Origin: Erysipelotrichaceae bacterium
GTDB lineage: Bacteria > Bacillota_I > Bacilli_A > Erysipelotrichales > Erysipelotrichaceae
Assembly (NCBI GenBank): GCA_017473335.1
Contig: JAFULN010000040.1
Coordinates: 1 to 64,000 of the forward strand
Direction: 5' to 3'
DNA: 64,000 nt
Shown: piece after piece, positions 29,372 through 41,278 of the stretch
How positions within the stretch are numbered: position 1 is the stretch's first letter
How the letters are laid out: each line of letters opens with the position of its first letter
Notes under the pieces: generated by a model
The model's database searches: none
The model's input: only the letters and a program-made list of their open reading frames with translations
Told to the model about the DNA's origin: nothing
Made by a program: the position numbers and the translations under genes

Positions 29372-29398
29372 AAGAAGAAGTGAACTTGTCACTTCTTT
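29370..29398 (-). terminator. Terminator of spoVAF
   Basis: GAAGTGA/TCACTTC 7-bp stem (29377-29383, 29389-29395) followed on the minus strand by TTCTTTG. It overlaps the spoVAF stop. Confidence 0.65.
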
Positions 29399-30702
29399 TT
29401 TCCTTTTAGAATTCTAAGACACTCTTTAGAGTCAAAAGGAATCAAAGGATATAGATAACAAACAGGACCAGTATCTGTACTCATCAAAATCAATACAGTA
29501 ATAAATACTCCTATCGCAAATCCAGCACGCTGATAAAACAGCGTACATAAAACAAGAAAGAAACGAGTCAATTTATTTGCCATGGACAGTTCATAACTAG
29601 AGGTTACAAAGTTACCAACATTGCATATAGCCACTAAAATAAGCATTTCCTGAGTATATGCTCCAAAATTAACTGCCGTTTCCCCTAAGATGAACACCGC
29701 AATCAAACCAAGCATGCTAGACAAAATAGAGGGGGAATGAATTAAAGAAAGTCTCACCCATTCAATGATTCCATCCACTGCCATAACCTGTAAAACAAAC
29801 ACAAATAGTCCCTGAAAACTATTAAATTCAAGAGTACATATCCATACAGGAAGTAAAAACACACTAATCAGTAACCCTAACGAACGCAGAAGACGAAGCA
29901 TCATGGAAACTAATAAAGGCTGGGTAACTTCTTCAATTTGAGATGTACATTGAAATAAAGTGGTAGGAAGAAGCATTGCGGTTGGACAATGATCCACCAA
30001 TATCGCAATCTGTCCCTGCAAAAGATGAATACAGACAAGATCAGGTCGTTCAGTAAATCTGACATGAGGATATGGATTATACCATTGATGATACAGTAAA
30101 TCTGCAAGTTCCCTTTCTGATTGAAGATTTACACTTTTATTGATGCGATCCAATCGTCCTATTAAATCATCTAAAACATCTCTTTGAACAACAGAATCAA
30201 TATAAAAAATCGCTATATCAGTATTTGTATGCTTACCAAAAGTCATATTCTTAATACACAAATCAAAGGCTTTAATGCGTTTTCGAATAAGTCCCAAATT
30301 TACAATCAAATGTTCAACAAACCCATCACGAGAACCTCGTATACTTTTTTCTACGGTAGGCTCACTTGTACTTCTTCCAGGAAGTGCACGAGTATCAGCA
30401 ACAAAACAAAACGGTGAATTTAAACGAAAGATGACAGTTTGACCTTGAAGCATCATTGTATAAGCCTCTTCTAAGGTAGTTGCACTTGTTACACTGGCAT
30501 TTAAAAAGATCATTGAATCGGGATCAGTTGCCAAACCTTGAAGTACAGGCTGCACACTTGCTGATACTGTAATTCCCCCAAGAAACAACAAATAATAAGT
30601 TTGATTCCGATTACATACAGAACGTATTGATAAATCATAACAGCGACAATTCTTTTTAAACCACTCAATGTTTTCATCTGTGTTTACATAAATATTTGTC
30701 AT
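29389..30702 (-). CDS. spoVAF: Stage V sporulation protein AF (GerA-family)
   Basis: 437 residues. A soluble N-terminal half carries the family motif GRSTSEPTVEKSIRGSRDGF (about residues 108-127), followed by five or so membrane helices (about 265-425) as in GerA-type germinant receptor A subunits and SpoVAF. In Bacillus SpoVAF assists dipicolinate release in germination. It overlaps spoVAE by four bases and ends the operon. Confidence 0.92.
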   Translation of the reverse strand: MTNIYVNTDENIEWFKKNCRCYDLSIRSVCNRNQTYYLLFLGGITVSASVQPVLQGLATDPDSMIFLNASVTSATTLEEAYTMMLQGQTVIFRLNSPFCFVADTRALPGRSTSEPTVEKSIRGSRDGFVEHLIVNLGLIRKRIKAFDLCIKNMTFGKHTNTDIAIFYIDSVVQRDVLDDLIGRLDRINKSVNLQSERELADLLYHQWYNPYPHVRFTERPDLVCIHLLQGQIAILVDHCPTAMLLPTTLFQCTSQIEEVTQPLLVSMMLRLLRSLGLLISVFLLPVWICTLEFNSFQGLFVFVLQVMAVDGIIEWVRLSLIHSPSILSSMLGLIAVFILGETAVNFGAYTQEMLILVAICNVGNFVTSSYELSMANKLTRFFLVLCTLFYQRAGFAIGVFITVLILMSTDTGPVCYLYPLIPFDSKECLRILKGKKK

Positions 30703-31049
30703 AGTTTAGGCTTAAATACCAGTGCGATAAAAAACGCACATGTAATCGCTGTAGTTATGCCTGCACTAGTAGTACTTAACATATTTCCAACAAGACCTAA
30801 AAAGCCATTTTGCGAGGCCCCCTGCATGGCAGCATGCATGAGTGTGTGTCCAAAAGAAGTAATTGGAAGCAGCGCTCCAGCTCCTGCAAAAGAAACAAGA
30901 CGATCATACAAGTCAAAGAAATCCAGAATTCCCCCAAGCACAACAAACAATGATGTAATATGCCCTGCAGTAAAGTTTGTGTGATCAAAAAGCAACTGTC
31001 CCAATGTACAGATAGCTCCACAAGTGATAAAAGCGTAAAGATAAATCAT
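30699..31049 (-). CDS. spoVAE: Stage V sporulation protein AE (SpoVAEb type)
   Basis: 116 residues with three to four membrane helices and the conserved LPITSFGHTLMHAAMQGA segment. With SpoVAC and SpoVAD it forms the channel for calcium-dipicolinate in the spore inner membrane. Overlaps spoVAD and spoVAF by four bases each. Confidence 0.92.
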   Translation of the reverse strand: MIYLYAFITCGAICTLGQLLFDHTNFTAGHITSLFVVLGGILDFFDLYDRLVSFAGAGALLPITSFGHTLMHAAMQGASQNGFLGLVGNMLSTTSAGITTAITCAFFIALVFKPKL

Positions 31050-32041
31050 ACACTCACCCTTTCATAGACAACACAATGAGAAATACAAGGAATAGAGTCC
31101 TTCTGCTGAACCAATACGGGTGATAGTAAAGCCCCAGTTGCAGCAACTAACACTCTATGTATGTTTCCCTCTTTAATTTTAGGAAACAAAGAGGCAATCG
31201 TTCCTAATGCACTGCAAGCACACCCGCTTCCGCCTGAAAAAACAGGCTGATCCATTAGGTTGTAAACTATCAAGCCACAGTCTGCAAGTCGTTTATCTGT
31301 GTCTATTCCCTCATTTTCAAACAAATCAAAAAGAACTGTAAGACCAACTTTTGATAAATCACCAGTAACAACTAAATCATAATCCTTAAAAGATGTATTT
31401 GTATTTTTAAAATGCGTCATGATTGTATCAAATGCAGCAGGCGCCATTGCTGAACCCATGTCATTGACATTCTTAAAGCCAAAATCAACGACTTTTCCAA
31501 TCGTCGCTGAAACAAGTCTTATCTCACTTTTTTGTCGAGAGAAACAAATTGCACCAGCACCCGTTACAGTAAATGTGGTTGTATCAGGCTTTTGAACACC
31601 ATATTCATTTGGATATCGGAATTGTCTTTCTGCAGTTGCGTTATGAGAACTCACAAAAGCACAAGCTTTTTCAGCATATCCAGCATCGATCATCATCCCG
31701 CAAATAGCTGATGCCAATGTTGAAGCACTGCAGGCAGCATAAACACCTAGAAAAGACTGAGCAATGTGTTTCATGAAATAATGGGCTGTCCCTAATTGAT
31801 TAATTAAATCAGAACCAACATAACAATCAATATCCTCTGCTTTCAAATCGCCATTTTTCAGCATTGCTTCTATTGCACATGAAAGCAGTTTTCTTTCCGC
31901 CATTTCATATGTTTTCTCACCACAGTAAACATCATCAAAGGCTACATCCAAATGTGAGCCAAGAAGCCCTTGTTTTTCCATTGGCCCTCCAGCTGCACCA
32001 TATGAATGTACATAGACATTTTTGAACTGTATTGTCTTCAT
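31046..32041 (-). CDS. spoVAD: Stage V sporulation protein AD
   Basis: 331 residues, thiolase/FabH-like fold. Conserved segments include YVHSYGAAGGPMEKQG near the N-terminus, SDLINQ, and VYAACSASTLA. In Bacillus it binds dipicolinic acid. Overlapping starts on both sides place it in the spoVAC-D-E-F unit. Confidence 0.94.
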   Translation of the reverse strand: MKTIQFKNVYVHSYGAAGGPMEKQGLLGSHLDVAFDDVYCGEKTYEMAERKLLSCAIEAMLKNGDLKAEDIDCYVGSDLINQLGTAHYFMKHIAQSFLGVYAACSASTLASAICGMMIDAGYAEKACAFVSSHNATAERQFRYPNEYGVQKPDTTTFTVTGAGAICFSRQKSEIRLVSATIGKVVDFGFKNVNDMGSAMAPAAFDTIMTHFKNTNTSFKDYDLVVTGDLSKVGLTVLFDLFENEGIDTDKRLADCGLIVYNLMDQPVFSGGSGCACSALGTIASLFPKIKEGNIHRVLVAATGALLSPVLVQQKDSIPCISHCVVYERVSV

Positions 32042-32481
32042 AGTCCTATCAGCATCCTTATTGTCCCTAACACATAAGCAGTCACAATCCCATAAGTCAG
32101 CACTGATCCAGCAAGCTTAAACATATTTGAACCTATTCCATAAATGAGTCCTTCTGACTTTGATTCAAGTGCACACGATGTTAAAGAATTTGAAAATCCG
32201 GTAATAGGAATAAACAGTCCTGCCCCTGCATGCTGCGCCAGTCGATCATAAATGCCAAATCCTGTAAGTAAAGCTGCAGTTGTAATAAACACCATTAAAG
32301 TAGGACCTGTTGCCTGCTGTACAGATAAATTTAAAGCATTCATAAATCCCTCCAGTACAAGCTGTCCTGCTAGGCCAATGCAGCCTCCCCAGACAAAAGC
32401 CATGATTAGATTTTTAAGTTTAGCTTTTTTAGGAGCTCTTTTCTGTATCGATTGTTCAATTTGATTTATATCCATCATCAT
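32038..32481 (-). CDS. spoVAC: Stage V sporulation protein AC
   Basis: 147 residues (145 if the third ATG at 32475 is used, which is better spaced from GGAGG). A charged N-terminus is followed by four membrane helices, and the family segment FIPITGFSNSLTSCALE is present. In Bacillus SpoVAC behaves as a mechanosensitive channel. First gene of the operon; spoVAA and spoVAB are absent, as in many clostridial-type operons. Confidence 0.93.
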   Translation of the reverse strand: MMMDINQIEQSIQKRAPKKAKLKNLIMAFVWGGCIGLAGQLVLEGFMNALNLSVQQATGPTLMVFITTAALLTGFGIYDRLAQHAGAGLFIPITGFSNSLTSCALESKSEGLIYGIGSNMFKLAGSVLTYGIVTAYVLGTIRMLIGL

Positions 32482-32494
32482 TTACCTCCACCGT

Positions 32495-32523
32495 TATTAT
32501 GGGAAGATACACATAAGATAAAC
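32495..32523 (-). promoter_or_regulatory. Candidate forespore (sigma-G/F) promoter of spoVA
   Basis: GTTTA (32519-32523), 17-base spacer, CATAATA (32495-32501) on the minus strand. The -10 fits the sigma-G consensus CATNHTA, and the -35 fits the relaxed GYWTA of sigma-F. It lies just after the symporter terminator. Confidence 0.5.
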
Positions 32524-32524
32524 C

Positions 32525-32552
32525 AAAAAGAAAACGACACATGTAGTGTCGT
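32525..32552 (-). terminator. Terminator of the symporter gene
   Basis: ACGACAC/GTGTCGT stem (32534-32540, 32546-32552) followed by TTTCTTTTT on the minus strand. It separates the symporter from spoVAC. Confidence 0.8.
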
Positions 32553-32578
32553 CATACTCAACGTAAATCATTTAATAA

Positions 32579-33913
32579 TTATTGAACATCTTTATGATAA
32601 AGTTCAGTATTTAATGCATTTTCACTGTTGGCAACAATGAGTGCAGTTGAACCATCACCAACAACATTTAAACTCGTTACTAGCATTTCAATAGGACGAT
32701 TAATCGCAAGAATCAATGAGTATGCCATTAAAGCTGCATCACTTGTATATCCCATACCAGATAAAATTGTAAACAAGATAACAGCTCCAGCTCCTGGTGC
32801 AGCAGGTGTTCCAATAGAAGCCACCAATGCAAGAATGCCAATTACAAGAATGTTCACAAATGTAATCTCATATCCTGCACATCCTGCAATAAAAACAGAG
32901 GCAATGACCTGCATAATTGCAGTTCCATCCATATTAATGGTCATACCCAAAGGAAGCACAAAACTAGCAATATCTTCATGAACACCTAGTTCTTCAGTCG
33001 TCGTTTTCAAATTCATAGGAAGTGCTGCAGCACTAGATGAAGTTGAAAAGGCAAAGACTGCAACTTTCACAATTTTCTTAACAAATGGAATTGGATTCAT
33101 TTTTCCTAAAAACTTGATATATAATGGGTACCCTACGCACAAATATACTAATAATGCCAATGCAACAGTAATCACATAGGCCATTGCAGGAAGCAAATGA
33201 TTAATTCCATAAATCGCAAATGTTCTGCTTAATAAACAGAAAATCGCAATTGGTCCAAATTTATTCACGATAAAGCTTAAAAACACAGTAATAATTTCAT
33301 TAACTTCTTCACAAAGTTTTTTTAGAGTACTTTCTTTTCCAATCTGATTGATTGCCAAGCCAACACAAACTGCAATAAACACAATGGAAAGAACACGACC
33401 ATTTGTAGAAAAAACAGTCATAATATTGTTTGGAATGATTTGCAGAAAGATATTCAAAGGATTACTTCCGGTAGTTCCTGTTGAGGCAGACAACCCTTCA
33501 ACATTAACGTTAAAAGCCCCTAAATGATAGACAAACATCCCCACAATTCCTGCAAACAAAAGACCAACACATGTTGTCATCATAAAAATACCAATGGTCT
33601 TAAAAGAGATTCGACCAAGCTTTTTTGTATCAGAAATACGACACATAGCTATCACGATGCTTGTAAAGACCATAGGCACAATCACAAGCTGCAGTGAATT
33701 GACAAACAGCTGGCCAATCACATAAAACAAGCCAATTGCTTGAGTCCCTTCAGGAGCTGTGATGTCCTGAAATAGTAATTGATGAATGAGATTCCAAAGT
33801 TCAGTTTGATTTGTGGATGTCAAATGCTGACGAAGTAGAAGAAACATTACACCACATGCAATACCTAAGACCATGGACAGTGTCATTTTACCTGCTAGAT
33901 GATTCTTTTTCAT
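32579..33913 (-). CDS. Dicarboxylate/amino acid:cation symporter (DAACS), PyrR-controlled
   Basis: 444 residues with about eight membrane helices and two re-entrant loops. The family motifs STSSSAAALP (HP1) and NMDGTA are present, as is a Gly/Pro/Ala-rich HP2 (GTPAAPGAGAV). In the last helix the GltPh pattern D390-D394-R397-N401 is Asn-Glu-Val-Asn here (INRPIEMLVTSLNVVGD). The arginine that binds an acidic side chain is therefore absent. Neutral amino acids, or another carboxylate such as orotate, are possible substrates. The gene carries its own strong promoter, a PyrR attenuator and a terminator, and sits between sigF and spoVAC. Confidence 0.85.
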   Translation of the reverse strand: MKKNHLAGKMTLSMVLGIACGVMFLLLRQHLTSTNQTELWNLIHQLLFQDITAPEGTQAIGLFYVIGQLFVNSLQLVIVPMVFTSIVIAMCRISDTKKLGRISFKTIGIFMMTTCVGLLFAGIVGMFVYHLGAFNVNVEGLSASTGTTGSNPLNIFLQIIPNNIMTVFSTNGRVLSIVFIAVCVGLAINQIGKESTLKKLCEEVNEIITVFLSFIVNKFGPIAIFCLLSRTFAIYGINHLLPAMAYVITVALALLVYLCVGYPLYIKFLGKMNPIPFVKKIVKVAVFAFSTSSSAAALPMNLKTTTEELGVHEDIASFVLPLGMTINMDGTAIMQVIASVFIAGCAGYEITFVNILVIGILALVASIGTPAAPGAGAVILFTILSGMGYTSDAALMAYSLILAINRPIEMLVTSLNVVGDGSTALIVANSENALNTELYHKDVQ

Positions 33914-34031
33914 ATTTATACTCTCCCTTCACAGCCTAGAAAAAAGGGTCTTTTTCGCACGGAAAAAGACCCTGATGATACTTAATTCTTTTTCCTTTCT
34001 GACCTCTCTGGATCAGATTAAAGGCTGCCGA
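33914..34031 (-). promoter_or_regulatory. PyrR-type transcription attenuator
   Basis: A PyrR binding hairpin (33994-34024) has lower stem CCUUU/AAAGG, upper stem CUGAUC/GGUCAG and hexaloop CAGAGA, matching the CNGNGA consensus. The antiterminator is GGAAAAAGA paired with UCUUUUUCC. A terminator stem (33946-33972, GGGUCUUUUUC/GAAAAAGACCC) with six U follows. The three structures are mutually exclusive in the way known for Bacillus pyr operons, where PyrR with UMP favours termination. Confidence 0.9.
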
Positions 34032-34035
34032 AGAA

Positions 34036-34064
34036 ATTATATTCATTTCAAACAATAAAGTCAA
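34036..34064 (-). promoter_or_regulatory. Sigma-A promoter of the symporter gene
   Basis: TTGACT (34059-34064), spacing 17, TATAAT (34036-34041). The -35 overlaps the sigF stop codon. Confidence 0.85.
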
Positions 34065-34774
34065 TCTAAAAGTTTCTTTTTTAATTTTTCATAAATTTTC
34101 TTCTCTAAACGAGATACCTGAACTTGTGAGATGTTCAGTTTCTCTGCAATCGCCTGTTGATTTAATTCTTTATGATAACGATAATATAGAATCAACTGTT
34201 CTCTTGCATCCAAATGTTCAATTTCCATTTCTAACGCAATTTTCATCTCTATATCCTGCGATTTTCCTGTATTCAGTCTTTCTTCCATTTTCAATTCAGA
34301 TCCATCTTTTCCAGTAGAGAAACTATCCAAAGAAGTTAAGTGCTGATTCGCATCAATAGCTAAAATCACATCCCCCTCTTCTAACTGACACATTTGTGCA
34401 ATTTCTTTGACTGTTGGTTCTTTTTCAGTGCTTTGTTCCAATACTTCTTTGGCTTTGAGTATTTTTAGATAATTCTCTTTTAATGAACGTGATACTTTCA
34501 TTTGTCCTTCATCACGAAAATAACGTTTGATTTCTCCTAAAATAATCGGAACTGCATAAGTTGAAAACATAACCTGATAAGAAGGATCGAAATTTAAAAT
34601 TGCTTTCATTAATCCAATACACCCAATCTGATTCAAATCCTGATAACTGCTGTGATTTCTAAAACGTCCAGTTATTGAATACACAAGTCCCATGTTGTCA
34701 TTCATGAGTTTTTCTTTTGACTGCATATCTCCTTTTTGAGCACATTTTAGAAGTTCAATCCAGTTTTCATCCAT
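34061..34774 (-). CDS. sigF: RNA polymerase sigma-F factor (forespore)
   Basis: 237 residues. Region 2 motifs include DLNQIGCIGLMKAILNFD and FSTYAVPIILGEIKRYFRDE; region 4 carries the helix-turn-helix LNISQVQVSRLEKKI. This is the layout of the sporulation sigma factors F/G, and position after spoIIAB assigns it as sigma-F. The start overlaps spoIIAB by eight bases. Confidence 0.95.
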   Translation of the reverse strand: MDENWIELLKCAQKGDMQSKEKLMNDNMGLVYSITGRFRNHSSYQDLNQIGCIGLMKAILNFDPSYQVMFSTYAVPIILGEIKRYFRDEGQMKVSRSLKENYLKILKAKEVLEQSTEKEPTVKEIAQMCQLEEGDVILAIDANQHLTSLDSFSTGKDGSELKMEERLNTGKSQDIEMKIALEMEIEHLDAREQLILYYRYHKELNQQAIAEKLNISQVQVSRLEKKIYEKLKKKLLD

Positions 34775-41063: not shown

Positions 41064-41272
41064 AAAATAAAAAATCGTCCTTCTCTAAGGACGTAAATTA
41101 CGCGGTACCACCTTAGTTCATGTTTTGAAACATGCCCTTTCTCTCTTTAACGCAGAGTTACGGAATGGATTAGATTCTGCTCCAAGACGAGTTCATCAAT
41201 TTGAACGACTGATTTTCACCAACCATCAGCTCTCTAAACGCTTCATCTTTGACTACTACTTCTCTTCAACAC
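41064..41272 (-). promoter_or_regulatory. Leucine T-box leader of leuS
   Basis: The conserved T-box AAGGTGGTACCGCG (minus strand, about 41101-41116) lies before a terminator GTCCTT/AAGGAC with ATTTTTTATTTTT (about 41069-41092). Stem I contains GATGAACTCGTC; its CTC matches a leucine codon placed as a specifier. Uncharged tRNA-Leu would stabilise the antiterminator and allow leuS transcription. Confidence 0.92.
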
Positions 41273-41278
41273 TTCTAT

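Follow-up and report, generated by a model that had tools for sequence, protein, structure and literature searches.

The symporter gene examined here lies in a 64,000-nucleotide stretch of the genome of a gut-dwelling Erysipelotrichaceae bacterium (the window) and is preceded by a predicted PyrR attenuator; the encoded transporter probably imports orotate, and possibly also dihydroorotate. Control of the gene by PyrR is, judging from the leader and its relatives, almost certain. The assignment of orotate or dihydroorotate as the substrate, which draws on operons and gene losses in related genomes, is likely. The analysis itself establishes the leader elements with their conservation and covariation, the presence of PyrR, the operons and gene losses in relatives, and the fixed pocket motif; from these we infer the binding of PyrR, the response to UMP, the direction of transport, the substrate and the coupling ion. 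The protein is probably an unrecognised orotate importer, because relatives keep the transporter beside the enzymes that lead from orotate to UMP.

The attenuator and its genomic setting

The elements of the leader are collected in Table 1. The promoter of consensus type that had been predicted here is present. The proposed PyrR-binding hairpin has a lower stem CCUUU/AAAGG, an upper stem of six pairs and the hexaloop CAGAGA. A cmscan search matched the Rfam PyrR family, RF00515, at positions 33,938–34,028 with 50.9 bits, covering the full model; the gathering score of the family is 54. This match tops the whole 2.42 Mb genome (E 4.4e-6), and the second-ranked match is the box before pyrB, with no other convincing one. 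A local covariance model, R1, scores the symporter box at 44.2 bits. The original prediction of a full PyrR box is thus borne out by an RF00515 match that is the best in the genome.

Table 1. Predicted features of the symporter gene and its leader, in window coordinates
Feature	Position	Strand	Basis or remark
Leader			between sigF (34774-34061, minus) and the symporter gene (33913-32579, minus)
Sigma-A type promoter TTGACT-17-TATAAT	34036..34064	-	11/12 consensus positions (consensus scan)
Promoter -35		-	overlaps 3′ end of sigF
PyrR-binding hairpin (anti-antiterminator), predicted	33994..34024	-	RF00515, R1 model, covariation
Antiterminator 5′ arm, GGAAAAAGA	33987..33995	-	pairs with 33969-33961
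Antiterminator 3′ arm, UCUUUUUCC	33961..33969	-	doubles as part of terminator 5′ arm
Intrinsic terminator	33945..33973	-	12 pairs plus U run
Ribosome-binding site, GAAGGGAGAG	33921..33930	-	inferred from placement 5′ of ATG
Symporter gene	32579..33913	-	444 aa, DAACS/SDF
Terminator 3′ of symporter gene	32533..32553	-	separates symporter gene from spoVAC

The antiterminator and terminator were likewise found as predicted, with complementary arms for the former and a paired stem for the latter. The further claim that all of these structures are mutually exclusive holds in part. The antiterminator is incompatible with the terminator and with the lower stem of the hairpin, but not with the upper stem, because antiterminator and hairpin overlap by just two G's (33,995–33,994). 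The switch would therefore act through the lower stem. Evaluated energies were −9.9 kcal/mol for the hairpin, −15.0 kcal/mol for the upper stem with the antiterminator, and −22.0 kcal/mol for the hairpin with the terminator.

Under the proposed mechanism, UMP-bound PyrR would hold the hairpin at 34,024–33,994 when UMP is plentiful. The 3′ GG of the held hairpin would be denied to the antiterminator, the terminator at 33,973–33,945 would form, and no transporter would be made. When UMP is low, PyrR would release the RNA, the 9-bp antiterminator would form, and transcription would read through. The symporter would then import orotate, to be converted to UMP by PyrE and PyrF.

An additional helix of 7–10 bp can be drawn between the stretch just 5′ of the PyrR box and a post-terminator stretch near the ribosome-binding site. 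It shows compensatory changes and was seen in leaders L182, L184 and L211, and weakly in the window (34,029–33,931). As it was significant in only 3 of 34 leaders, it was rejected as a general feature.

PyrR is encoded in the same genome (C61; 54% identity to a B. subtilis-like query), and a complete pyrB-C-carA-carB-K-D-F-E operon lies behind the only other convincing PyrR box. UraA was not found in this genome in a search at E 1e-30. The symporter gene is probably transcribed alone, because a terminator follows it. It sits between spoIIAA-AB-sigF and spoVAC-AD (29,389–34,774); the stretch from sigF to spoVAC is usually a continuous sporulation region. In the sister species G002 (L015) the symporter gene also follows sigF, and a hydrolase gene and then spoVAC come after it. 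Elsewhere in the window, an ordinary T-box leader (RF00230, 131.3 bits, 41,084–41,278, minus strand) lies upstream of a leucyl-tRNA synthetase gene.

Conservation of the PyrR box at orthologues

A lack of conservation of the box upstream of orthologues had been named in advance as an observation that would speak against PyrR control; the box proved to be conserved. Orthologue coordinates were crossed with RF00515 coordinates in each genome, and the leaders were then read; R1 was built from 23 leaders of relatives. By the tally of the model's match tables, the orthologue is preceded by an R1 box in 44 of the 48 genomes examined, spread over four Bacilli families (f1, 36/40; f9, 2/2; f13, 5/5; f18, 1/1). 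One of the 36 boxes in f1 precedes an operon of uraA followed by the symporter orthologue (SYM). R1 found no box at the orthologue in G078, G178, G260 and the distant G014. In L187 (G301, family f13) the symporter gene occurs twice in tandem.

RF00515 alone missed variant boxes in G061, G035, G149 and G070. In about half of the leaders the loop is shortened to C-GAGA, and RF00515 gives such boxes low scores. Leaders L202, L167, L166, L164, L029, L207 and L211 carry variant boxes with the stem AUAGUA, mostly with the C-GAGA loop. A strict DNA motif scan also undercounted boxes, because many relatives have the loop variant, and R1 was used in its place. Rfam's tally of PyrR targets in this order may be too low.

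The slightly sub-threshold Rfam score weighs against the PyrR reading and could suggest that the box resembles a PyrR site by coincidence or is a vestige, with the gene outside PyrR control. This explanation is extremely improbable in view of four observations. First, the position of the box is conserved. Second, covariation in the upper stem across the 23 leaders was greater than in any of the 500 shuffles and in any slid control, with compensatory changes from C-G to A-U, G-C to A-U and A-U to U-A. Third, a scan of related loci totalling 0.94 Mb with R1 gave 65 matches; the ones traced so far sit directly upstream of the symporter gene, uraA or pyrB, and as far as traced none was found elsewhere in these loci. 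Fourth, in family f2, where the orthologue is present and PyrR was not found in the sampled genomes, R1 found no box before the orthologue. The R1 scan also found no box at orthologues in Clostridia metagenome-assembled genomes. One genome counts against the PyrR reading: G009 (99% complete, one contig; L022, L130, L152) has boxes before pyrB and the symporter gene, and no PyrR protein was found there down to E 0.001.

Operons and gene losses in relatives

Evidence for the substrate comes from relatives in which SYM is the first gene of a box-SYM-pyrF-pyrE or box-SYM-pyrK-pyrD(-pyrF-pyrE) operon. SYM is directly followed by pyrF-pyrE in L050/L189, L055/L166, L059/L161, L172, L182, L184 and L199, by pyrK-pyrD, in some cases with pyrF-pyrE after them, in L029, L169, L170, L198 and L200, and by pyrE-pyrK-pyrD in L070; it adjoins uraA in L188 and L197. 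The original proposal was that the symporter serves pyrimidine supply under PyrR. These operons with pyrF, pyrE, pyrK, pyrD or uraA, together with a box that is kept across four families and absent from f2, argue for it. An Rfam scan of the orthologue loci found no element pointing to another substrate.

Pathway genes were searched for with queries of joined pyr proteins against the genomes of relatives. PyrR and pyrE were detected in G084 (95% complete) and G333 (85%), where pyrF was read from the operon as the neighbour of pyrE; pyrB, pyrC, carA and pyrD were not detected in either. G116 (99% complete, 9 contigs) has detectable PyrR, pyrD and pyrE, and G134, G217 and G232 have detectable pyrD and pyrE; pyrB, carA and an intact pyrC were not detected in these four genomes, G217 having a pyrC-like fragment (31%). 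Matches resembling pyrB in the genomes that lack the early genes were partial only, at 31–36%, as might be expected for ornithine carbamoyltransferase. The substrate of PyrE is orotate. Given that G084 and G333 have pyrE without detectable early genes, the substrate of PyrE would have to come from outside, as orotate. A transporter that heads an operon with pyrE would most simply supply orotate or, in operons that include pyrKD, dihydroorotate. In some relatives the symporter would be the only visible feed for PyrE, and in the window genome orotate import would supplement a complete de novo pathway. Most of the genomes in which pyrB or pyrC went undetected are incompletely assembled, which tempers the argument for orotate.

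Import of dihydroorotate rather than orotate is rather unlikely. It would suit the five loci in which pyrK-pyrD directly follows SYM, and also G116, which has only the half of the pathway from dihydroorotate to UMP. Dihydroorotate would, however, be useless in G084 and G333, where pyrD is undetectable.

A different pyrimidine (uracil, cytosine or uridine), taken up by the symporter in place of UraA, is a very unlikely substrate. Within one genus, G003 (L135) and G001 (L139) have a boxed uraA without the symporter, and G000 and G002 have the symporter without a uraA match, a pattern of replacement. This either-or pattern of boxed symporter and UraA breaks down in the family, where many members have both genes, adjacent in some, and it was no longer used as a leading argument. 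The symporter also travels with pyrE and pyrF, which are dispensable for the salvage of uracil and nucleosides.

The binding pocket

The symporter fold is clear from sequence: the Pfam model PF00375 (SDF) matches residues 8–429 with 319.6 bits. The NCBIfam DctA model gives 140.4 bits against a cut-off of 513, and the GltP model scores far below its cut-off. In the tree the protein falls in a clade of its own (support 100/100, branch 3.7), apart from DctA, GltP, GltTk and the other DAACS paralogues of the order.

The pocket is nearly fixed in 96 relatives, with HP1 FSTSSSAA, HP2 GTPAAPGAG and TM8 NRPIEMLVTSLN (consensus N-R-P-[IV]-E-M-L-V-T-[SA]-L-N). The roles of the pocket ligands are taken from the established GltPh and GltTk structures. 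Sites for the first carboxylate of the substrate are retained. Val412 replaces the TM8 arginine for the second carboxylate; 90 of the 96 relatives have valine, and no arginine is among the listed residues. Glu409 stands where GltTk and the 9bgz aspartate transporter have aspartate. This pocket would suit a compound that combines a single carboxylate with NH donors, as orotate does, better than aspartate or carbamoyl-aspartate. The name "dicarboxylate" symporter used in the original prediction is right for the family, but the window protein itself probably does not carry dicarboxylates. Among the substrates first proposed, orotate (or dihydroorotate) fits best. Carbamoyl-aspartate fits less well, as does aspartate, because of Val412 and because genomes lacking aspartate transcarbamoylase keep the box-SYM operon.

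The same evidence bears on the idea that what the symporter brings in is an amino acid used in de novo synthesis, either aspartate or glutamine, with co-regulation explained by the pathway's consumption of it. Acidic or neutral amino acids are common substrates of DAACS proteins, the closest relative with a solved structure transports aspartate, and the window genome has the full de novo pathway. The idea is nonetheless unlikely to be correct. The change from arginine to valine in nearly all relatives counts against aspartate, and genomes without detectable pyrB, pyrC or carA, which could not use aspartate or glutamine for pyrimidines, keep box-SYM-pyrF-pyrE or box-SYM-pyrK-pyrD-pyrF-pyrE. One observation on the pocket weighs against the orotate reading: Clostridia and f2 orthologues have the same motif but lack the box and are not flanked by pyr genes, so the substrate could also serve something other than pyrimidine supply.

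Comparison with known systems

The leader has the same promoter, hairpin, antiterminator and terminator as the PyrR attenuators of B. subtilis and S. pneumoniae (RF00515), which act on pyr operons and pyrP/uraA and likewise govern how pyrimidines are made and transported. The PyrR boxes of S. pneumoniae lie before pyrF/pyrE, pyrR-pyrB-carAB and a putative uracil transporter (PMC10942264). The known transporter target of PyrR is the NCS2 protein UraA, whereas here it is a DAACS symporter. The known loop is CNGNGA, to which the window box conforms, in contrast to the C-GAGA of many relatives.

Orotate import has a precedent in the superfamily. E. coli and Salmonella take up orotate through DctA, which is a DAACS protein (Baker 1996, as cited in PMC13328217), and the MG1655 annotation also gives DctA as an orotate importer. 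DctA is a C4-dicarboxylate/orotate:H+ symporter through which orotate is taken in as a pyrimidine source. This parallel is limited, and counts against the orotate reading, in that DctA keeps the TM8 arginine and shares only 23% identity with the window symporter. DctA also belongs to a separate branch and is not known to be PyrR-regulated or to lie in a pyr operon. GltTk and 9bgz are closer (32–38% identity) and share the fold family and the cation-site motifs NMDGT (TM7) and N...D (TM8). They differ in the pocket region, where aspartate has become glutamate, arginine valine and tyrosine methionine in the window symporter, and in HP2, which is GTAGVPGAG in GltTk and 9bgz. Dedicated orotate import in a Gram-positive is likewise known from lactococcal OroP, which belongs to a transporter family other than DAACS (TC 2.A.7.21.4; PMC12802215).

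Implications

The original prediction knew of no described PyrR-controlled DAACS protein, and our search of freely accessible main texts also found none. In an extensive survey of regulons under RNA motifs (PMC3766115), PyrR is mentioned solely in connection with pyrimidine metabolism, and the main text does not name a symporter. Here a familiar RNA switch is coupled to a transporter subfamily that is new. The PyrR regulon thereby gains a transporter family, and many genes annotated merely as dicarboxylate or glutamate symporters gain a concrete, testable substrate. The chances seem evenly balanced that this is a DAACS subfamily of dedicated, PyrR-controlled orotate importers, and that some gut Bacilli, having lost the early pyrimidine genes, live on orotate from their neighbours or host. 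If true, orotate would be a nutrient exchanged among gut Bacilli, and several lineages would have pared their pyrimidine pathway down to the final two or four reactions.
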